This document shows, in pieces, positions 10,389 through 59,680 of a stretch of 64,000 bases of DNA. The stretch covers positions 136,620,000 through 136,683,999 of the forward strand of contig CM067369.1 in assembly GCA_034401795.1 (NCBI GenBank), read 5' to 3'. Numbering within the stretch: position 1 is the stretch's first letter; every line of letters starts with the position of its first letter. The notes beneath the pieces are model-generated. The model searched no databases. It was not told where the DNA came from and worked only from the letters and a program-made list of their open reading frames with translations. The position numbers and the translations under genes were made by a program. Origin of the DNA: Chaetoderma sp. LZ-2023a (Eukaryota > Mollusca > Caudofoveata > Chaetodermatida > Chaetodermatidae).

Positions 10389-10460
10389 CCATTTCATATC
10401 ACTATTATCAACCTCGTCGAAAATTATCCACATTGCTCTCGCTAAAGCTCGTGTAATGTG

Positions 10461-11415
10461 TTAATGATATGAAATGGTTGATAATAGTGATAAGAAATGG
10501 TTGATAATAATTATATGAAATGGTTGACAATAGTGATATGAAATGGTTGATAATAGTGATATGAAATGGTTGATAATAGTGATATGAAATGGTTGATAAT
10601 ACTGATATGAAATGGTTGATAATTGTGATATGAAATGGTTGATAATAGTAATATGAAATGGTTGATAATTGTGATATGAAATGGTTGATAATAGTGATAC
10701 GAAATGGTTGATAATAGTGATACGAAATGGTTGATAATAGTGATATGAAATGGTTGATAATAGTGATATGAAATGGTTGATAATAGTTATATGAAATGGT
10801 TGATAATAGTGGTATGAAATGGTTGATAATTGTGATATGAAATGGTTGATAATAGTGATATGAAATGGTTGACAATAGTGATATGAAATGGTTGATAATA
10901 ATGATAGGAAATGGGTGATAATAGTGATATGAAATGGTTGATAATAATGATATGAAATGGTTGATAATTGTGATATGAAATGGTTGATAATAGTTATATG
11001 AAATGGTTGATAATAGTGATATGAAATGGTTGATAATAATGATAGGAAATGGGTGATAATAGTGATATGAAATGGTTGATAATAGTTATATGAAATGGTT
11101 GATAATAGTGGTATGAAATGGTTGATAATTGTGATATGAAATGGTTGATAATAGTAATATGAAATGGTTGACAATAGTGATATGAAATGGTTGATAATAA
11201 TGATAGGAAATGGGTGATAATAGTGATATGAAATGGTTGATAATAATGATATGAAATGGTTGATAATTGTGATATGAAATGGTTGATAATAGTGATATGA
11301 AATGGTTGATAATTGTGATATGAAATGGTTGATAATAATGATATGAAATGGTTGATAATAATGATAGGAAATGGTTGATAATAGTGATGTGAAATGGTTA
11401 ATAATAGTTATATGA
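10461..11415. repeat. 23 bp minisatellite, about 41 units
   Basis: The unit is close to GATATGAAATGGTTGATAAT plus AGT. Variant units (AATTGT, AATAAT, GGGTGA) recur in the same order, suggesting higher-order amplification. Because 23 is not a multiple of 3, the long reverse-strand frames with HITIINHF-type repeats are by-products of a stop-free unit. One inverted unit sits outside the array at 10,389-10,412. Confidence 0.97.
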
Positions 11416-11519
11416 AATTGAACTCGTTCCAATTCCTCTTTATATCTAATTTCACTCCACAATAATGAAATTTATTAATGATTTAACCAGCAAGACATAT
11501 TCTGTATAATGGAAGAAAT

Positions 11520-32575: not shown

Positions 32576-33285
32576 ATGTAACGCGCCAATAACCAATTTG
32601 GCCCGTTTGTAAACTGTGCAGGCTCACATACCAATGTGTTATCAGCGCTCTCGTTTGTAAACGGCACAGACCCATATGACAATTTGTTATCTGGGCGCCC
32701 TTTTGTAAACGGTGCAGACCCATATAACATTTTGTTATTGGCGCACCCTTTTGTAAACGGCGCAGACCCATATGACAATTTCTTATTGGTGCGCATGTTG
32801 GTAAACGGTGCATGGACCATATGTCAATATCAAACTTGCGCCAATATGATATGTACAGATTTGTAAACGAATTATGATTTCTAGCCCTACCTTCGTAGAT
32901 CAATGATTAATTTTCAGTCACTGAAAGAGTTTATTTAACGTCTTTCCAAAAGACGTTAAATCATTTCACCATCCATTTTATGACATACCTACTTAATCTC
33001 CGGGAGAGGTGTGACGCAAACATAGTTTTAATTAACGGACTAATGTGTGCATAAATAGGTGATATTACGTTTTCAAAAATAATCTGTCGCTCTACAAATG
33101 GGTATTTTCTCATGAGAAGATGAACATTTTTCTTTCATAAATGTGAGCATTATTTAAAGTGTTTAAGAATGCCATCCGTTTACACACGGGTGCGCCGATA
33201 ACAAATTGATATATGGGACAGCGCCGGTTACAAACGGTCCTGTGCCGTTTACAAATGGGCCAAATTGGTTATTCTGTCGCTACAT
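32576..33285. mobile_element. Family G element, copy 1 (sub-repeats near its left end)
   Basis: The ends are ATGTAACGCGCCAATAACCA and an inverted TGGTTATTCTGTCGCTACAT. Just inside the left end are about four ~58 bp sub-repeats with (C/T)GTTTGTAAAC and CAGACCCATAT, and inverted remnants (TTTACAAATGGGCC) lie at the right. The G copy at 46,915 has the same architecture. Short frames in the sub-repeats are not genes. Confidence 0.7.
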
Positions 33286-34171
33286 ATTAGTAGGGGAGCC
33301 AAGGCTGAAAAAAATCACTTTTCACCTATCGGAAAGTAATAGTTTATATCTGTGTTTTTCCTCTTCCTCTTAGCATAAGTTTTTGGAAAATGTCTGTTAG
33401 CAAGAATTTCCGTCTTGCAAATTCGAGATTTTGCCAATTAACCACTCCATTGACAACCACATTTCTGCATTGTGACAGAATATGTGTTTTAGTGGAATAG
33501 AGTAAGAATCTCAAAAGGAACTCCAATTTTGGTCATGAACCATATAGATTACATACATTGCATAAGTACAAACACTTTCAAGACAATTGGCCGTTTCATT
33601 CTTACGAAATTGTAATTTATTTCAAATAATTTTTTTGGCTATAAGCATAATTACTAAATAATGAACCATTGGCGAGCTGTTGCACTCACAAGGACACCAC
33701 TCTCCGTATCACAACGCACACGTTTTCCCCTCCTTTTGACATATGCTATACCTATATATGACGCAGGGATGAAATGTTATTTGACATTGGGTACCTCTAC
33801 CCCCATTGTGCGCCTCAGTTTTAAATTACCTTTAAAATCAATGGTTTCACAAATATCCGGAATCAGATAGATTCAAGGAAATAGTATTACTCTAGATCAG
33901 GTATGCAAAGAGACTTAAAACAGACCAGTTAACAAGTTTCAAACTAGTATTTTGTATATTGCAAACACATCTGAAATTTTAGATTATCACGCTTCACCAT
34001 TAAAACGCAAAATTACCATTGTCCATATATGCACACAAAGCAGTAAATAAAGTACTCATCCAGAAAAATAGGCATAGATGCAGACAGGCCTGACAGAGAA
34101 ACAAGGTAGTCTTAGGTCACGTGGAGGACAAAGGATATGCAGTATTATGAAAACAGATCATCTTGTGTATA

Positions 34172-34382
34172 CAGTGACGCCTCTCTTTAGCGACCACTTC
34201 ATGCGTCATTATAAGCGGTTGTTGAAGACATGTTCACTTAATATGGCTATTAATGCAGTTAATAACTTTTGGGACTACAGGCTCGTTGTTCTTAAAGATG
34301 AGTTCTCTTACGACCACCCATCTTTAAGAACCACCATCTTGTGGTCTCAAAAGTAGGTTGTCGTTATAGACAGGTTTGATTG
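34172..34382. mobile_element. pogo/Tigger-like MITE
   Basis: It is flanked by TA on both sides. The left end CAGTGACGCCTCTCTTTAGC and the inverted right end CAATCAAACCTGTCTATAAC are partially matched. Internal GACCACC blocks repeat. CAGT..AACCTC ends with TA duplication are typical of pogo-type Tc1/mariner MITEs. It has no transposase. Confidence 0.68.
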
Positions 34383-34788
34383 TATGTATATTTGTGAGTA
34401 TGTATTATATGTGTGTGCGTGTGTGCATGAATTCTTGCATGCCAGTCACATAGGACATGTTTGAAAGACTTCCCGTCCACATAGATTCGACCCGCAGCAA
34501 CATGCCACAAAAACAGATTTCCCCAGCTCTGTCACAAGGACAGGCCTTTGTACAAAGTGGTTTGCCATTATATTTCAGCTACAATATTCTTCTTCTTGCG
34601 TTCATCTGTCTCATGACAGTGATCTTAGACTGTTTTCCTTATTTGGTGCATGAAAGCTGAAGTGGTCATCAAACTGTCTCTGTCTCCTCTGATCTTCTCT
34701 TCAAAAGATACTTCAATAGAATAGGCCAGAAGTTTCTCCTAGCCTGTTCATCTTGCTGGCAGTGCTGCAAGAGATGTTCTGCTGTTTC

Positions 34789-35397
34789 TTATGCCTGCTG
34801 ACACTCACAAAGTGCAGAATCTGTAATCTTGAGACGGTGAAGATGTGCATTGAGACGATTGTAACCAGTCCTCAATCTGAAGATGCATGTCTGATCCTCC
34901 CTACTGAGGCTGTGTATTGCATCGTTATGCTGCCTGCTGGTGGTTCTTGTGGCTTTAATGATATGCTTCAGTTCTTCAAAGTCAGCCTCACGGTTGAATT
35001 GTTCTTTATTTGACCCAGCTTTGTCATTTCCTGATATGTCACAATGCGAGGGGATCCACGGTAAGTTGACATTATTTTCCTTGGCCAGGTGCGTAAGAGT
35101 GTCATGGAGCGCTGAGAGGGAGTCTGTCAGGAAGACAATATTTTCATTTCTGGTTTTTCGTTGTATCAGCTTTTGGCTAGCTAAGATCAGTTCCTGGATT
35201 TCTGCAGTGTAATTTCTACAGTGCATCCCTGTTGACAAGGATGAGTCTGTTATATCGCCACATGGAAACCGATTGTGAGCACCTGCCCCTCCATTCTTGA
35301 CAGCCTGGATAGCTGATCCATCTGTATAACCATGTATCCACTCTTCCTCATGGTAGTTTTCTGCAATATGACTCAATGCAAGAACTTTGTTTGTCAC
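34789..35397 (-). pseudogene. LINE RNase H domain
   Basis: Open for 202 codons. It contains GYTDGSA (first catalytic Asp), YTAEIQELI (Glu), FLTDSLSAL (Asp) and IPSHCDISGNDKAG, where the usual final Asp after NxKA is a Gly. The C-terminal ALCECQQA is the start of the LINE Cys-rich tail. It removes RNA from cDNA hybrids in active relatives. It lies downstream of the RT in the same element. Confidence 0.88.
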
Positions 35398-36014
35398 CTC
35401 TCCTTGACCTCCCTTGCTTTCAATCTCTGGATTGAGGGGCAGATTGAAATTGTATTTTCTATTTCAGAAGCTTTCCATGGTTCCCTCTCAGAGATAGCAG
35501 TTATGTTTGTACATCGGGGAAAGATGTCCGACTCTCTGTTTCTTCAAATTTTCCTTGAAGTTAATAAGAAATTATCCATCTTGAGCCTTCATCTAGACAT
35601 TTGGTGAGTCCGCCAGCATATGCATGGGACGGTGAGGCATCAATTTGAATTTCTCGTATTGAATCTCGGCCTTGATCTCGCGTCTCTGCTGGAGTGGCTG
35701 GATATTGGTAAGTTCTTCCATCGCTGCTATTGGAGTGGTCTTCATGGACCCTGTTAGGATATGAAGAGCCTGATTTTGTACCTTATCCAGTGTCTGAAGA
35801 GTGCTTGTAGCAGCTGTCATCCATGATGATGAGCCGTATTCGATGATGGGCCTAAATGATCCAGAGTAAACCAGTTTCGGAATTTTCATGTTAGTCCCCT
35901 ATTTTGTTCCAGTGAGCTTCCGCATAACTGCCAGTCTTCGCATGGCTATACCTTCAGCTTTTCTGATTTGCGCCTTCCAGGTTAGTCTTTTGTCAAATAT
36001 CAGACCAAGATAAG

Positions 36015-36900
36015 TTACTTCATTCTCAAAGTGCAGAACTGAGTCACCAAATTACAAGACTTGTCTTGTGTCTTGTGTTCCTCTTTAGTGGATAGTGTGA
36101 ATAGAGTTGCGACTGTCTTCTCTTTGTTGATCTGGACAAACCATCTTGCAACCCAGGAAGTGAGGTGATCAATTGCGAGTTGCATGCGGTAATTGGCTGT
36201 TGACACATACCCCTCACTGCTCCACAACACGAGGGTGGCAGCATACAATGCAGCTCTGACTCCCATTGGAAGGTTCTTCAACAGGTCATTGATGAATATT
36301 GTGAAGAGGGTGAGAGAGACTACACCACCCTGAGGTACACCATGTCGTGGTAGGACTTTCTTGCTGCTCGTCCTATTCAGCTGTACTGCTGCCTTTCGGT
36401 TGTGGAGGTACTGGTATATCCAGCTGTACATTTTTCCAGAGATATCACTGGTCTTGAGCTTTTGGAGGAGTTCATGCTTCCATACTTTATCAAATGCTTT
36501 CTGCAGATCAACCCACACAGTGATGGTATGCTTTTCCTGTTGGAACACCTCCTCAATAGACTGTGTCAGATACTTTGTTTGATCCTCAGTAGATCTACAC
36601 TTTCTGAAGCCATTTTCTTCATCCGCTAACAGATTGTTGCTTTAAAGATGTTGAAGAAGATTTTGACTGAGGATTCTTTCCATGGCTTTTACAGTGCAAC
36701 TAGTCAGACTGATATGTTGATAACTTGCCGCTTTGAATTTATTCTTGCCTTTCTTCAGTACAGGGATCATGTTGGCCTCCCTCCAAGACTGGGGAACTTC
36801 TCCTGTGTACCAACTGTGTGCTTTCCAATAGTACCCAGATTCCTCAACATCTTATTGGATTCCATCTGGTCCAGGTGACTTCCTGCTTTTCTGAACATTC
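36015..36900 (-). pseudogene. LINE reverse transcriptase domain (broken)
   Basis: The palm motifs are visible: KSPGPDGIQ at the end of the preceding frame, WVDLQKAFDKVWKHELL, RHGVPQGGVVS and FINDLL. The catalytic YADD box is replaced by YAATL, so both conserved aspartates are lost. A stop and a frameshift separate it from the upstream linker (37,145-36,852). This copy is inactive. Confidence 0.9.
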
Positions 36901-37559
36901 ACGCTTTTCTCCAACTCGCTGATGGTCAGAAGCTCACCCATTTCCGCAGCATGTATTTGCGTTTTTCCGTTCCCCGTTGCAGACTTCATTGCAGCTTTTT
37001 TATAACTCACTGGCACATATAGATTGCTTACTTTCTGAAACATACAAGCAAAGTGTTCGGCAGCAGCCTCTCTTGTTTTAATTTCACAATCATCTTCCAG
37101 AGTTATGTTCGGTCCTTTGCTGTTTACATCGTTAAGCTGCTTCACAAGCCTCCAGAGTTTGTTCGTATCCTTTTCAAGATTTAAGCTTGAAGTTTTTTTC
37201 TCTCCACGATTCTCTGGAGGCTCTGATTTTGGCTTTCAGATACGTTACCTTGGATTGTTGGAGTCTCACATGGGTGGCTTCTGTTGGGACATTCTCTGCA
37301 AGTTCCCTTGCATTGGACATATCTTCGTGTAACGTTTGCAGAGACGTAGTCCAGTAAGGTCTGTAGTTTTTCCTGGATCCCCTAGGAATGCATTTGCCAG
37401 CAGCAGAGAGTAAAGCAGAGTTAAGCTCTTTAACAACTTTATTGATGTTTTGGTTTTTGACATCCATGTATTTTACCACTCTGTCATTCTCTTTCTAATA
37501 TCTGTCCCAGTCTGCTTTCTTATAGTTCCATCGAGGGGTCTGATTTCCATCAATCTCAA

Positions 37560-38189
37560 CATCCATGGTAATGGTAAAAGAGGGCAGTGATCACTGCCTC
37601 CAAGTTGTTCTCCAACCATACGCAAAGATTCTTGATGTAGATTTTCTGTCGAAAATGCTAAATCAGGAGAACTTGAGGTATGCCGTAGAGTAGAATGTAG
37701 GGGGTCATCTGCATTATTCAAGAGAATAAGCTTATGCTCATCCATCCAATGTTCAATGTCTTCTCCTATCAGTAGAATGATAAGCCCATAACTGAGAATG
37801 ACTGTTGAGGTCACCAGCAACGATAGTTGAATCTGGGCGAACTGGGATTTTTCCGAGATTCAATGGTTCATTATTATGGCAGTAATAGTTGTCAACGGTG
37901 ATAGGATGTTTCTCTCGAATTATCTTGATTGTGAGAATGTCATATCCTTCCATGTCTCTCCGAACTTCAATGGCGTTTAGGTTATTCCGGACCAGGGTTA
38001 TGACTCCACCTTTATGCCTATCATCCCTGTCAGATCTGAAGCAGTTTCTTGGATACACGCGGCATCTACGCCTTTCTCCTTGAGAATGTGGCTAAGCTCC
38101 GTTTTCTTGTTAGAAACCCCTTCAGCATTCCATTGCATGATAGTCAGCGGTTTGCTTACTTGGTCTTTAGGTTGGACAACCTTCTTCAT
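37560..38189 (-). pseudogene. LINE endonuclease domain (frameshifted)
   Basis: Signatures in order are MQWNAEG near the start, CIQET, a GDLNSHSQLW block and GGSDHCPL, matching motifs of apurinic-like endonucleases that nick target DNA for LINE integration. The domain is split over three reading frames (38,189-37,998, 38,058-37,753 and 37,820-37,473). It cannot be translated as one product. Confidence 0.85.
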
Positions 38190-38499
38190 TTTTGTCCAAC
38201 GTCTACGAACTTTACCACCAGTAGCTTAGGTGGACACCTTCCAGGCTGGGGTGGGGTGGGGAGCGTGGGTGGGGGGGGGGGCGCGGCCCGGTGCTGCACA
38301 TGGCTGGCAGGATCTCACACGGCGAGCACCATGACTGATATTCATAGTATTATCTGGTATGAAAGATGAGTTGTTTAGTGCTATGGTTGGCCACTCGCTC
38401 CAAATACATGGCTTGGTACCCAGATAAAGTGTTACACCCCTGTGCTCGACCCAAGATCAGAGATCTCTGATCTACTTTGAAACCTAGCACTTGTAGCAG

Positions 38500-41285
38500 G
38501 GGCAGCTACAATGATTTTGGTAACTGTTTTATGTCTGGTTTTGGAGACTGTGTCATTTTAATTCTTGTAAGAACCTCATCTGATACAGACCTTTCAAATC
38601 CATCTGTTGGATCAGGTAGCCCGAGAATATGGTTATGAGCATTTTTGTACATAGCAATTTGAAACAGAGCCCGATATCAGTGTTGCAAAAAAGCATCTTC
38701 TGTTGGAGGAAGTGTCCGGAAATCACTTCTGAATGATGCAAATGCGTGTTCCCTCAAAACGTCCAATAATGAGAAGGTAGGTTTGTTATATAAGGATGCT
38801 ACAATCAGTCTAACATCTCCAATCACATCCCCAGATTTATCCGTACTATTTTCCCCATAGCTTGCTAATGCTTGTAGTTTATTTTCCTTCATCAAGGAAA
38901 TGGTAACCTTGAGTGCCTTCTTGTTTCCTTTCGAAAATATGGAGCTGGCGGTGTCGCAACCTGTGATGACATAGGTGGCGAGTAAGATGGAGAAGACGTA
39001 TTTGACTGCGTAATTTAGCATAGTTGTCAGACGAACTACCAAGTCATGAATAGGAAGAAATTTCCCCCATGCGTAGCATCCACATTTCTTTCTAAATGCT
39101 CATCGTACTATAGTATATGGCCATAATTATCACGCCAGTGTCATCTGATTAAATTGCTACACGATGATAGCCCGGTTTGTTCACTGAATAGTTGGCATGC
39201 ACCATAAGGCGCGTCCAAGTAGGATAATTCATCAATGCCAACAACATCATTTATGGTAACTGACACCGCTTTACACGAGTTCTTAAATTAAATGTTCCAC
39301 CTAAGACTAGTATAATAGCATTCAGCTTTTGTCTCGACACTGGTTTCATCCATTCTTCTGAGAGATAGTCCAATATATCTGCCTTCGTTTTCTCATTCCC
39401 CATCAGCTTGGCCAATGGAGGAAGTAATACTCCTTCCTGATGCAGGAATGTATTCTGCGGTTTCAACTTTAGTCCTATTTTGTCGTTCTTCTAGTTTCAA
39501 ACGCTTTTGTTGGCCCAAAGTCATATCTATCTCTAACAAAATGTATTAAGTCACAACCACCAGGCTTCATAGTGATTATCTTGTTGAGATGCGCATCTTT
39601 GAAATCTTCAAATGTTCTAGTGCCAAGTCTTTGGTATTTCTGTAGAAAACACATCAAATCTACAAGAAATCTGTTTGGCATATCACACACAGGCAGGTAA
39701 GAATGCTCATTCATTATAATAATCTGATTTAAAAACCTTTTCTTATTTTATGTGTGTCATGTTGCACATCAGGTTCAAACAGAGAAGATGGGTATTCTGT
39801 CCATTCATGTCTGAATGCTTCATTTCTTACTTCTTTGCTGTTTTCATTGAATATAAAACACAAGGAACGAGTCTTTGTTGTTTCCTCTTGATATATTTTC
39901 TTTATGCGTGTGACTTTCCTTTTTGTCTTTGTTTCTGCAAATGGTGTTATAATGGGTGGTAGAATCTTATCCGAGTTGCTTTCTTTTGCTGATTTAACCG
40001 CCTTTTTCCCTTGTGTAATCGCAAGAGCTAAACTTATGTTTCTGGCTTTTTGTCTGGTAGCAATGTTTACCAAAGAACATCTAAAAGGGATTTATCATCT
40101 CAAATCTTACCACATTCATGAGCCTTGCGACCATCTCATTTTCTTCAATGTCCTTCCTGTTTAGCTGGCTGTAAATCCTCTTCATTGTTTAGGTTGATTA
40201 TTACCTTAACTTGTTCACCAACCTTAGCCATAAAAGGTACTGCTTTAACATACTTGTCTCGTGGGGACTTATTAAGACTGACTCCCTTGAACATAGATAT
40301 TTCCCCTCCTTGTTAAATGTCTGCGCAAGTCCTAAGTCTGTCCACGCGCCATTGAATGAAGCTGTTGTCTATCTTACTGTGAAGTTACCACAACAAAACC
40401 GAGTGTACACATTCGGGTGTGTATTTGGCAGTTGATTCAAAGTTTCATGGAGGTGCTGTGGAAGACATACCATGTAAATATGATGCTTCATGGACACTAA
40501 TAAGGGTAGCATTTTCTCAGCTTCCTCTAAGTGTTTCTGCCAATTACCAGATCTTTATGATTCAAAGTAGCCTAGAACAATGGCTACCACATCGATTTAT
40601 GCATCCCCGTAATTGGCTGTTGTATGGAGTGTCAAGGTGAACTCATCCCAATTTTCTTGCAGCTTAATATCCTCCATAAATCCTAGCAGATCATCCAATA
40701 ACAACCCCGGTTTGGTTGGAGATTATAGGAAGAGTGGTCGATATCCTATCGTTGTTGACTCTTCTACATTGTACGTCTTTTTCTGAAAGGTTTCCATTTT
40801 GGACTTATGTTAAAGTCATCGGTTGGCATAAGGTTTGTTGGTATCATTCGAGACCGCATCCAAACTATATTTGTGCCAATCAGCTTATATTCATAATCTT
40901 CTGTGTCAGGTAAATTTGTACCAGTCAAAAACCGTGTTTGTCTTCTGTCTTTCAGACTTAAATGGGCCACATCTACAGTGAATGGATTTGGCGCCTTTAC
41001 TACTGTTTTCCTACTTTTTCAAAGCTTTGTGGCAAAGAGATCTGTTGCTGTTTTGCATTTGTGTCTTGGTTATATTGGTAGAGAATGTGTGTAGTAGCAT
41101 GCAGGGTTGTTCCGTCTTTAGTATTTTCATGAAAATCTAAATTGTCAAAAGCAAATAGTGCAAACAAACCTGGCAGCATATTTTCTGGTATGAATACCCC
41201 CATTTACTTCAGTATTATCATTTAGCTGATCTGCTGCATGAGTTATATACTGTTGTGCATCTGTCAAACTATTTAAATAGCATTA
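38500..41285 (-). pseudogene. GCDT-motif protein gene, copy 1 (decayed)
   Basis: Minus-strand fragments line up in one order: a segment with FDNLDFHENTKDGTTLH (41,203-41,000), HPNVYTRFCCGNFTVR and WTDLG blocks (about 40,600-40,300), a RQKARNISLALAITQGKK block (40,073-), RDYDFG-like RDRYDFGPT (39,714-39,475), DTRL-like WTRLMVHANY and SDDTGVIIMAIYY (about 39,210-39,090), ITGCDTASS..KGNKKAL (39,042-38,677), LPPTEDAFLQH, an in-frame TGA, YRALFQIAMYKNAH, and finally HCSCPCYKC near 38,515. I know this arrangement from memory as an unnamed, highly repeated protein family in cnidarian, mollusc and other invertebrate predicted proteomes. Several frameshifts and stops make it a pseudogene. The N-terminus is lost near 41,285. 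Function is not established. Confidence 0.8.
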
Positions 41286-41384
41286 AATAGCATTAACGGT
41301 GATAAATAAAGCGTGTGGCCATTTAATATGCTATCCACTATAGTGGGCTTGATTAACAGACGTTGTAACGGTTTTTTGTCATTT

Positions 41385-41470
41385 TGAAATGAGCCGCCTT
41401 ATATAACCACATGTCTTAGAGAACCACCAGAATGTGGTCCCACAACCAGGTAACCACTATAGACCATCTG
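41385..41470. mobile_element. pogo-like MITE fragment
   Basis: ACCACATGTCTTAGAGAACC and GTGGTCCCACAACCAGGTAA resemble the interior and right end of the pogo-like MITE at 34,172-34,382. The ends are missing. Confidence 0.45.
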
Positions 41471-42120
41471 CACGAGATAATTGAATACAAACGTATTTCG
41501 GTTTACTATACAAATAGTATAATGTCGTAAATTTGCTAAAAATAGAATTCGATAAAGTCACGAGCTGACAGCTCCGTTGACGTCCCAATTTTAATTGGTG
41601 TGAAAAGAGGGTGTGGGGGTAATTGTGGCGCTATATCTCTGCAATGCTTCGGCCAATTACATTAAGCAATATCTTAAAGTTTAGGGCATATATTTATATG
41701 GTATTATTTTGACAAATTATTATACAGACTAATTGAAAAAAGTATTTTTGGCGTATTTTATAATTAACCATGAATAAAACAAAAAAAAAACCCGAAAAAA
41801 TCAAACTTTCAAGAGTAAAAATACATTTTCCCAAGAAATAAAAATTCTCAAAACATGTTGTGTCATGTAATCTTCAATAGTAAATGCTGATATGCTATAT
41901 TCATTAGCGCTGACATTCAAATTTTAAGCCGTGGGTTCCCCAATGGCAATCTCAAACAGAAATGTGGGCGTGGCGCTTAATATAGCAATATCTCATTTTT
42001 GTAACCCAGATAATCTTACTAGCAAGTATTTTCATAAAAGGAACATACGTGTACATGAGATTTACAAAATGAATAGCTACCAACTATTATTTTCCGATAG
42101 GCAAACTCCTTAAACAATGG
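41471..42120. other. Gene-free right part of the transposon
   Basis: AT-rich with A runs near 41,780. No gene upstream of the GCDT pseudogene is recognisable. Confidence 0.4.
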
Positions 42121-42147
42121 CTTTTTAGCATGTTGGCTCCCCTACTA

Positions 42148-42569
42148 TATACGTTTGTCCCAAGCCTGAATATACGTCGACGTTTCATCAGAGTGATACT
42201 GTTCGTTTTGACATTGTTGGTTGACCTATGAAGGCACGCTAATACACGAACATGTGTTTAACACGAGTATTCGAGGCCATAGTAGTGGAGACTTTCATTT
42301 TTTGTCACTGTATGATGTAGAGCCAGACTCTGGCAATAGGATGCTCCCAACCCAGTTTGCTTGAAATCGATCCAGCTGCTAATGGTTATTAGTCTTTTAA
42401 CCAATATCCTAGAAGTTTTCGTAAATCCAAGAGGGCCGCCAAAAAATCGACCACTCGATTTTCTTTATAGAAGTTCGGAAGCCTACCCCCCCCCCCCATG
42501 GGAACCTTCAAGTCAACCTTTTTTAAAAAAAAGTATTTTTGGTGTATTTTTTTCAAGTAGATTTGTTAA
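42148..42569. other. Gene-free interval
   Basis: Contains a C run near 42,487-42,497. Nothing else recognised. Confidence 0.4.
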
Positions 42570-57881: not shown

Positions 57882-57946
57882 CTTAATGGCGTGTTCAAAT
57901 GTGATGTCCGCGGAAATCTTCCTAACATAGTATCCATGTTTCTGCA

Positions 57947-59680
57947 ATGTTCGTACCAAGTTTTCACTTGGGGCGGTCATATGGCGCACGCGGGGCAAGA
58001 GTTGCCTTGGGAACACGACGGAAAATCGCCCGTCCCAAACGTTCTCCCGCTCCATGGACCCTGAAAATTCCATATATGTTTCGAATTTCTATCGGCGCCC
58101 TAATAGGGCTGTTAATTCTGGTCGGAGGTACCGCTTTAAGCATTATGGCATATTACCCAGAATTTTTCTCCCTAAGATTCGCCCACAATTCCAGTTTGCC
58201 TGTCGGAGACACGAATCGGACATATACCACGTGGTACAATAGTAGACAGTTCTCGTTCGTTGGGCCTGTGTGTATGGGAATCGGATTTTTCACGATAATG
58301 GTTGCTTGTGTGGTTTATTTCGAATTCCGAGATAGGTACTACAGAATGATGCCAACAGAAACGTTGAAGAAGCTACCTGATAAAGATGTATATGATTTAA
58401 TGGTAGAACAGTTTCGAAAGAAATGTTTTCGGGGTACGCAAGTACCAGTGGTTAAACCGCCCGCTAATGCTAATACACCTGGAGCTATGGCGGTATTGGC
58501 AGCTTCAGCTGCCGCTACTAGCGTAGATAATATTGTGTCGCACTGCGCGCCATACCTCCTACAGCGGCCAAAATCAGCCCAGCCATCACTTTCTGAAATG
58601 GATATCCTCTCCGGACACACACATACCAAGTTTTCTTCTATGCATGAACTAGCTCTCTCTGTGCACCATCTTCAAGCTTCTAAATTCCTCCGTCCGGAAG
58701 CGAGTACTGAATCATGTCCTGAATATTTAGACTTCTCGCCATGTAAACCCGGTAAAGACATCAGCGTGTCAACCATTCAAACTGATAGTACGAGCGCATC
58801 ACGATCCGGGGCGCTCCTTACTCGGCCACGGCGACGGGATATTCCGCAGAGACGCAAACTTTTACCAGGTGTTCAGAATCCAGCGTTCATGTCTGATGAG
58901 GATTTGCCGAGGTGGTTCCAAACTCCCGAGGCTTTGAGAGGGGAAATGGATTCCATTGCTGGTGATATTTGGACAGATCGGAAATTCACTGATGAACATG
59001 GCGTATCCCGAAGTCAGAGCGATATTGGTCATCCAAAGCTTTGCGACAAAAGTCAGAGCCATGACAGCTCACTCTGTGTGCCTTCCCGACAACGGGTGCC
59101 GCGGACATGGCCACGAAAGAGCAGATCAGATAATGGATTGGAATATAGCTTAGATCCCAATTGTGAGGAGACAATGGAGGTAAGCGACGAAAGTGAATGT
59201 GATAGTTCCGTCTTGCATGTCTTACCATCCCCAAATGCAGATGACATTAGTATTGCTCAAGCGTCATTAGAAACGGATGGTTCGCAGTCTTCTGTTGATA
59301 AGCATGATTCGTCCAGTCTGCAGACATACGAGGTGGATGACGGTCGTTCTGTAAGTCAATTAGGACATGTGAGTACGAGTACAAATGACAATAAGAGCCT
59401 TGACTGTGATAGCGACTTTGTCGAACTAGAAAGCGAACATAAACCGGTATCACCTGCCGTTGGTCAGCTAACCCTCGGACATATCAGTGTGTGGTCCTCG
59501 CATCAGGACCTAACTACACCGTTCGAATTTCAAAAGCCAGACGTCAGACATAAAGACATACCTAGGAGACATAGTACTCAAAAGGAACGGATAAGTGAAT
59601 GGTCTTCTAATGCCATGCCACCTATAGACAATGGCTCCCCGTCCTCAGATGAAAGGGTTATCTTCAAAATGCAATTGTGA
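57947..59680 (+). CDS. TMEM200: TMEM200-family two-pass membrane protein
   Basis: 577 residues in one uninterrupted exon. Residues 23-46 are basic. TM1 spans about 47-69 (IGALIGLLILVGGTALSIMA then YYP) and TM2 about 103-126 (VGPVCMGIGFFTIMVACVVY). The loop at 70-102 has two N-glycosylation sequons (NSS, NRT). After TM2, FEFRDRYYRM precedes a long cytosolic tail rich in Ser, Thr and acidic residues. The G-I-x-x-x-x-x-YxP after TM1 and the GPxxMGIG then ExRD arrangement at TM2 are hallmarks of vertebrate TMEM200A/B/C, which I recall are also encoded in a single coding exon. The tail keeps only scattered short similarity. The start is the first ATG after an in-frame stop. The cellular role is not established; it is likely a plasma-membrane or endomembrane protein. 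Paralogue assignment is not possible here. Confidence 0.88.
   Translation: MFVPSFHLGRSYGARGARVALGTRRKIARPKRSPAPWTLKIPYMFRISIGALIGLLILVGGTALSIMAYYPEFFSLRFAHNSSLPVGDTNRTYTTWYNSRQFSFVGPVCMGIGFFTIMVACVVYFEFRDRYYRMMPTETLKKLPDKDVYDLMVEQFRKKCFRGTQVPVVKPPANANTPGAMAVLAASAAATSVDNIVSHCAPYLLQRPKSAQPSLSEMDILSGHTHTKFSSMHELALSVHHLQASKFLRPEASTESCPEYLDFSPCKPGKDISVSTIQTDSTSASRSGALLTRPRRRDIPQRRKLLPGVQNPAFMSDEDLPRWFQTPEALRGEMDSIAGDIWTDRKFTDEHGVSRSQSDIGHPKLCDKSQSHDSSLCVPSRQRVPRTWPRKSRSDNGLEYSLDPNCEETMEVSDESECDSSVLHVLPSPNADDISIAQASLETDGSQSSVDKHDSSSLQTYEVDDGRSVSQLGHVSTSTNDNKSLDCDSDFVELESEHKPVSPAVGQLTLGHISVWSSHQDLTTPFEFQKPDVRHKDIPRRHSTQKERISEWSSNAMPPIDNGSPSSDERVIFKMQL

Follow-up and report, generated by a model that had tools for sequence, protein, structure and literature searches.

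The closest described systems belong to the Academ superfamily of DNA transposons. The AcademX lineage of this superfamily is said to go back to Kojima in 2020. Its nuclease is of the XPG type. Target duplications of AcademX are 3 or 4 bp long and those of AcademH 9 or 10 bp, these lengths being related to the encoded nuclease and helicase (PMC10045372), and curated bivalve Academ elements have a mean length of 5565 bp (PMC10294476). A literature search found no work that joins GCDT proteins with transposons in invertebrates and none that joins Academ with XPG, and DUF6589 was without mention among the matches listed. The locus described here lies in a window of 64,000 nucleotides (the whole stretch of DNA that was analysed). 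It is likely that it represents a dead terminal-inverted-repeat DNA transposon of the AcademX lineage, whose only gene, GCDT, would encode the mobility protein with a D-D-E and an XPG/FEN-like region.

Between 33288 and 42147 lies a DNA transposon copy that is dead and interrupted and whose sole gene of its own is GCDT (Table 1). The initial annotation had reported exact ends of 15 bp and a second matched block around 8.86 kb and both blocks were found in place, the outer ends agreeing in inverted orientation at 15 of 15 positions and the inner blocks at 85% over 27 nt; between outer and inner blocks 22 and 31 nt remain unmatched. Its further description of imperfect ends of ~75 bp holds for both blocks, but inward of the first 15 bp the agreement is patchy. 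The gene carries frameshifts and stops; its nuclease part with TGCDT lies at 38961 upwards, DNxD at 41146, and ~450 bp of other copies, including the TADQA region, are deleted near 40700. The LINE in the window is missing from the other family copies compared and is bounded by a target duplication of 10 bp; it inserted later, into the C-terminal part of the GCDT gene, and is no part of the transposon. A retrotransposon as a component of the element was rejected on account of this absence from other copies and its own target duplication. GCDT, which had been called the only non-retrotransposon gene inside, is the only gene of the element, and the retrotransposon arrived afterwards.

A hairpin-forming sub-terminal repeat (34265-34371, 41406-41464) is found near both ends in the same orientation, with 71% identity over 59 nt. 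Since the two repeats lie in sequence common to other copies they belong to the family, and for the same reason their reading as separate Tc1-like insertions, at 34.3 and 41.4 kb, was rejected. They may be protein-binding sites. Elsewhere in the window an open frame of 584 aa at 57926-59677 (+) has a Pfam match to DUF2371 (E 3.9e-06); it presumably encodes a TMEM200-like membrane protein and is likely a host gene. The units of a tandem satellite at 10411-11471 keep long minus-strand frames open, which by their look are no gene.

Table 1. Features of the interrupted transposon copy and its immediate borders in the window.
Feature	Position	Strand	Basis
Left target-site duplication TAT	33285..33287	.	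Sequence; 3-bp duplications seen in family
Left terminal inverted repeat TAGTAGGGGAGCCAA, at the gene's 3' side	33288..33302	+	Inverted match; genome-wide recurrence
Inner inverted block (CCTATCGGAAAGTAATAG...)	33325..33351	+	Recurs at both ends in other copies
Sub-terminal repeat, copy 1	34313..34371	+	71% like 41406-41464, same orientation
GCDT C-terminal Cys-rich coding remnant, severed by LINE	34470..34585 (lower limit approximate)	-	Homology to other copies; Cys-rich end read from family majority sequence
LINE target duplication CAGCTACAAT, copy 1	34576..34585	.	Sequence
LINE inserted later, with remnants of endonuclease, reverse transcriptase and RNase H	34586..38502	-	Pfam matches
LINE target duplication CAGCTACAAT, copy 2	38503..38512	.	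Sequence
Decayed GCDT gene	38503..41270 (limits approximate)	-	Three frames with stops
Sub-terminal repeat, copy 2	41406..41464	+	Within sequence common to other copies
Inner inverted block, right	42075..42101	-	Inverted match to 33325-33351
Right terminal inverted repeat, at the gene's 5' side	42133..42147	-	Match to 33288-33302; genome-wide recurrence
Right target-site duplication TAT	42148..42150	.	Sequence; 3-bp duplications in family

An inverted pair of 15-mers alone is weak evidence, because dinucleotide shuffling of the window sequence gave such a pair in 18 of 300 cases and a second, unrelated pair occurs in the window itself (33657-33671 / 37861-37875). The collinear inverted arrangement of the 15-mer and an 11-mer was found in none of 300 shuffles. 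In the genome from which the window comes (2753 contigs, 2.44 Gb) a search with the 15-bp end gave 87 exact sites, 37 forward and 50 reverse, and none with the reversed control. Pairs of ends less than 26 kb apart comprised 14 that face each other, at lengths of 1519-24,944 bp, and none that face away or run in the same direction. Thirteen of the facing pairs were fetched as whole intervals (12 and the window), and a 25-kb pair as its two ends only. In the fetched pairs the sub-terminal sequence is GGTTGAAAAAATCAC-like at one end and CATGCTAAAAAGCC-like at the other, with small variants, and this recurrence of the same two differing sequences, one per end, bears out the supposition that the two ends belong together. 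The 13 copies, members of what is here termed the old family, can be aligned along their whole length, insertions and deletions aside, and share a common core of ~5.3 kb; one of them (L013) measures 5423 bp. In an alignment of 11 copies, from which the internally deleted L009 and L014 were omitted, divergence from the majority sequence was 4.6-6.8% in 10 and 17.6% in the other (L015), with a median pairwise divergence of 10.7%. The window's transposon family is old and its copies are scattered across many contigs.

Insertion of the old family duplicates 3 bp, and empty sites confirm this. Exact 3-bp duplications (TAT, GAA, TAA and GAT) were found in seven of the 14 pairs, a number reached by none of 2000 permutations (mean 1.45). 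One further pair (L019) has an exact duplication of 4 bp, which is ambiguous because it lies inside a TAG run, and the flanks of the remaining six agree at 2 of 3 bases. When the flanks of L014 are joined with only one GAT between them, the join is spanned by matches to 40 scored places of a dispersed repeat, the total being 159 if partial matches are counted; an example is C12:138875234-138875491, where positions 3-260 of the query match 258 bases. L013 sits in a 35-bp tandem array, the 35-bp step of which is kept across the join once one TAT is removed. Both of these empty sites, which the initial annotation had suggested looking for in order to define the target duplication, agree with 3 bp, and its reading of the locus as a DNA transposon is upheld by the facing pairs, the end-to-end homology, the duplications and the empty sites together. 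The repeat into which L014 inserted was considered as a LINE, a reading that was rejected as Pfam finds no reverse transcriptase in its open frame. The right half of that repeat recurs as an array at C9:126858161-126864360, with pieces ~52 bp apart.

Genes of the GCDT family were located with P0001, a 226-aa protein from the nuclease region of copy L018; the search gave 164 matches in all. The old family was defined as the 130 matches at 41% identity or above among those listed, which form 93 loci, with 19 matches at 32-34% (other families) and one in an already-counted locus left out. Among the matches listed a GCDT piece lay inward of 50 of the 87 ends at a distance of up to 10 kb and outward of none, the chance expectation for a piece within 10 kb outside an end being ~0.0004 per end. 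GCDT is the element's own gene, as had been proposed, and the copy number of GCDT is thereby explained. No nuclease piece was listed within 10 kb inside the other 37 ends, some of which enclose only other parts of the gene. The proposed search for end pairs around GCDT genes succeeded in 11 of the 14 facing pairs, which hold a nuclease piece among the matches listed; those without one are the internally deleted L009 and L014 and the 25-kb pair. A reading of the ends as MITEs, against which the initial annotation had cautioned, was rejected in view of these nuclease pieces and of the lengths of the facing pairs, since with a shortest pair of 1519 bp the ends are not mainly MITEs. An independent relative, P0003, matched 17 of the 20 loci L009-L028 by tblastn, with no match at L009, L016 and L028. 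The other outcome that the initial annotation would have taken as a refutation, GCDT genes elsewhere that lack the ends, did not arise either: among the matches listed 39 of the 93 old-family loci still have, less than 10 kb away, an exact end on the right side. The other 54 have no exact 15-mer there, which may be explained by decay. The ends of other GCDT families are related to this 15-bp end but differ from it, and not every GCDT gene is therefore covered by it.

A young family with long open frames was found in the same search at 32-34% identity, its protein identity with the old family being 34% in the nuclease part. The element in L059 (L059:1834-9030) is 7197 bp long, has the ends TAGTCAGGGAGCAC and the duplication CTG, and contains a single open frame of at least 150 aa, which encodes the 1621-aa protein P0003. 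There are 11 full-length copies that are ~99% alike (that of P0003 itself and ten at 99%), eight of them stop-free. Both ends were found in nine of the 11 copies examined, and all nine have an exact 3-bp duplication (CTA, TCA, TAG, CAA, AAC, ATA or CTG), an outcome seen in none of 5000 permutations. The 14-bp end of this family occurs at 70 exact sites (one for the reversed control), 37 of which fall at young-family loci as typed in the analysis. When left ends were accepted up to 12 kb and right ends up to 4 kb away, both exact ends were present at 16 and at least one at 21 of 23 loci, including two loci at 66-75% identity. The young family, in which genes are intact, ends are related to those of the old family and 3-bp duplications are exact, has moved recently.

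Two young copies on C17 have a common damaged left end, and in one of them TGG stands on both sides, as judged by eye. At C17:92653143-92653383 and C17:92803194-92803434 (L072, L062) two copies agree in their left flank as well as in the damaged end, and one of the two has, by eye, a Tc1-like coding sequence in place of the right end; the common flank and end are what a segmental duplication would give. A third GCDT family (L080, C16:106300200-106301600) has the motifs EADTR, PDTDV and CDSKSCFKGKGKKKA in one open frame, of 381 aa within the stretch examined, and these nuclease motifs are the same as in the old and young families.

The motifs DNxD, TADQA and LEQT are conserved between the old and young families and are a candidate D-D-E triad. 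They are followed in series by E[AC]DTR, DTD and TG[CK]D-type motifs at spacings near those of FEN1, and in P0003 and L080 by GxGxxxA, which at the level of motifs suggests an XPG/FEN-like nuclease region with GCDT in place of GSDY. A model from six XPG/FEN proteins gave its best local match over the nuclease motif in all three GCDT families. Shuffled sequences scored as well in 0 of 300 cases for L080, 4 of 300 for the old majority sequence, 16 of 300 for the nuclease part of P0003 and 117 of 300 for the whole of P0003. A profile of the three GCDT families found its best match on the GxDY motif in all six XPG proteins tried; for five of them no more than one of 300 shuffles equalled it, and for the sixth 26 did. 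No standard search tied the GCDT proteins significantly to XPG nucleases or to any transposase: Pfam gave no XPG match for them, extra nuclease pieces included, searches of the PDB with them gave no match, and hhalign with the three-sequence profile gave no support for the XPG link. The basis of the nuclease reading is therefore the motifs. A match of the old family to Pfam DUF6589 after TADQA has E 0.014 and 14.6 bits (cut-off 27), and for P0003 Pfam gave no DUF6589, no helicase and no informative match. By eye, the C-terminus of P0003 is rich in Cys, and finger patterns of the C..C type stand close to its N-terminus. Nothing was gained when viral contigs were scanned with P0003 and the GCDT piece from the window, phages with P0003, or prokaryote genomes for XPG sequences with human FEN1.

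Transposition of such an element may be envisaged as follows. The GCDT protein would bind the TAGT..GGGAGC ends, perhaps aided by its terminal Cys-rich stretches. An RNase H-like D-D-E region around DNxD, TADQA and LEQT would then cut and join strands in a cut-and-paste manner, and the XPG/FEN-like region could trim one strand or a flap in excision or gap filling.

The rival that survives best is that the GCDT transposons make up a superfamily separate from Academ, the 3-4 bp duplications being coincidental and the anatomy and mobility gene unchanged. The faintness of the DUF6589 similarity in the old family (E 0.014), its lack in P0003 and a comparison with Academ made by description only speak for a separate superfamily, but a nuclease together with duplications of 3 or 4 bp is the combination published for AcademX, and sizes of ~5.3 and 7.2 kb are near the bivalve Academ mean, which leaves it improbable. 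An elaboration that we hold to be equally doubtful would add to the separate superfamily a fused FEN-like nuclease that partly processes the strands and a family recently active here, and would make transposase-nucleases of the unnamed multi-copy GCDT proteins of invertebrates. Far less probable is that GCDT is a host gene family or a passenger, captured by a transposon and moved by the transposase of another element. The catalytic assignment of the protein, predicted from its sequence, leaves some room for capture, but GCDT is the only sizeable open frame in the young element, and two families as distant as 34% protein identity both hold it between related ends, which a single capture hardly explains. 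A chance match of ends around a cluster of retrotransposon debris would gain from the fact that one 15-bp inverted pair is not rare in shuffles, but it is already refuted by the genome-wide facing pairs, the end-to-end homology, the duplications and the empty sites.

As the probable mobility protein of a DNA transposon, the GCDT family, multi-copy in many invertebrates and unnamed, would gain a concrete job, and it is easy to mistake genes of this type for families of host genes. With its genes intact and its target duplications exact, the young family allows a direct test of what a flap-nuclease-like domain does in fusion with a transposase. What is new is that GCDT proteins are tied to a transposon, with a recently mobile family in the same genome; the kind of transposon is most likely a known one.

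Comparison with known proteins and transposons sets the GCDT elements apart from several kinds. With XPG/FEN nucleases (FEN1, EXO1) they share the order and spacing of E..D, DxD, GxD and GxGxxxA, the intervals being 27/55/10 residues in P0003, 27/56/10 in L080 and 20/53/9 in human FEN1, but the similarity lies under ordinary search thresholds and the GCDT region sits in a transposon protein of 1621 aa. DUF6589 proteins have in common with them the weak local match in the old family and differ in that P0003 is without one. In this genome DUF6589 proteins are a large multi-copy family, the 102 scored of 1025 candidates all lying above the cut-off where listed, with several open frames of more than 1000 aa among the places listed and 0 of 14 control genomes positive; they are possibly another transposon family, and by eye none of the 102 listed places coincides with a listed GCDT place. 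CMC or CACTA elements have ends that start with CACTA or similar and duplicate 2-4 bp, and were rejected because the ends here start with TAGTAGGGG and TAGTCAGGG, though the duplication length would fit. The 8-bp duplications of hAT, TA of Tc1/mariner and TWA of PIF-Harbinger are likewise excluded by 3-bp duplications that vary in sequence. AcademH, which would belong to the same superfamily if the filing is correct, has duplications of 9 or 10 bp and a helicase and so differs from elements that duplicate 3 bp and for whose P0003 Pfam finds no helicase. With AcademX the GCDT elements share inverted ends and a duplication of 3 (rarely 4) bp, and the motifs of their protein suggest a nuclease-like region as well. 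Since duplication length, putative nuclease-like region and rough size fit, the GCDT transposons are filed under the AcademX lineage, a filing that is only probable because the comparison with Academ is by description and not by sequence. The epithet 'undescribed' in the initial annotation is accordingly to be dropped, as a transposon that duplicates 3-4 bp and putatively encodes a nuclease fits, by description, the published AcademX (PMC10045372).
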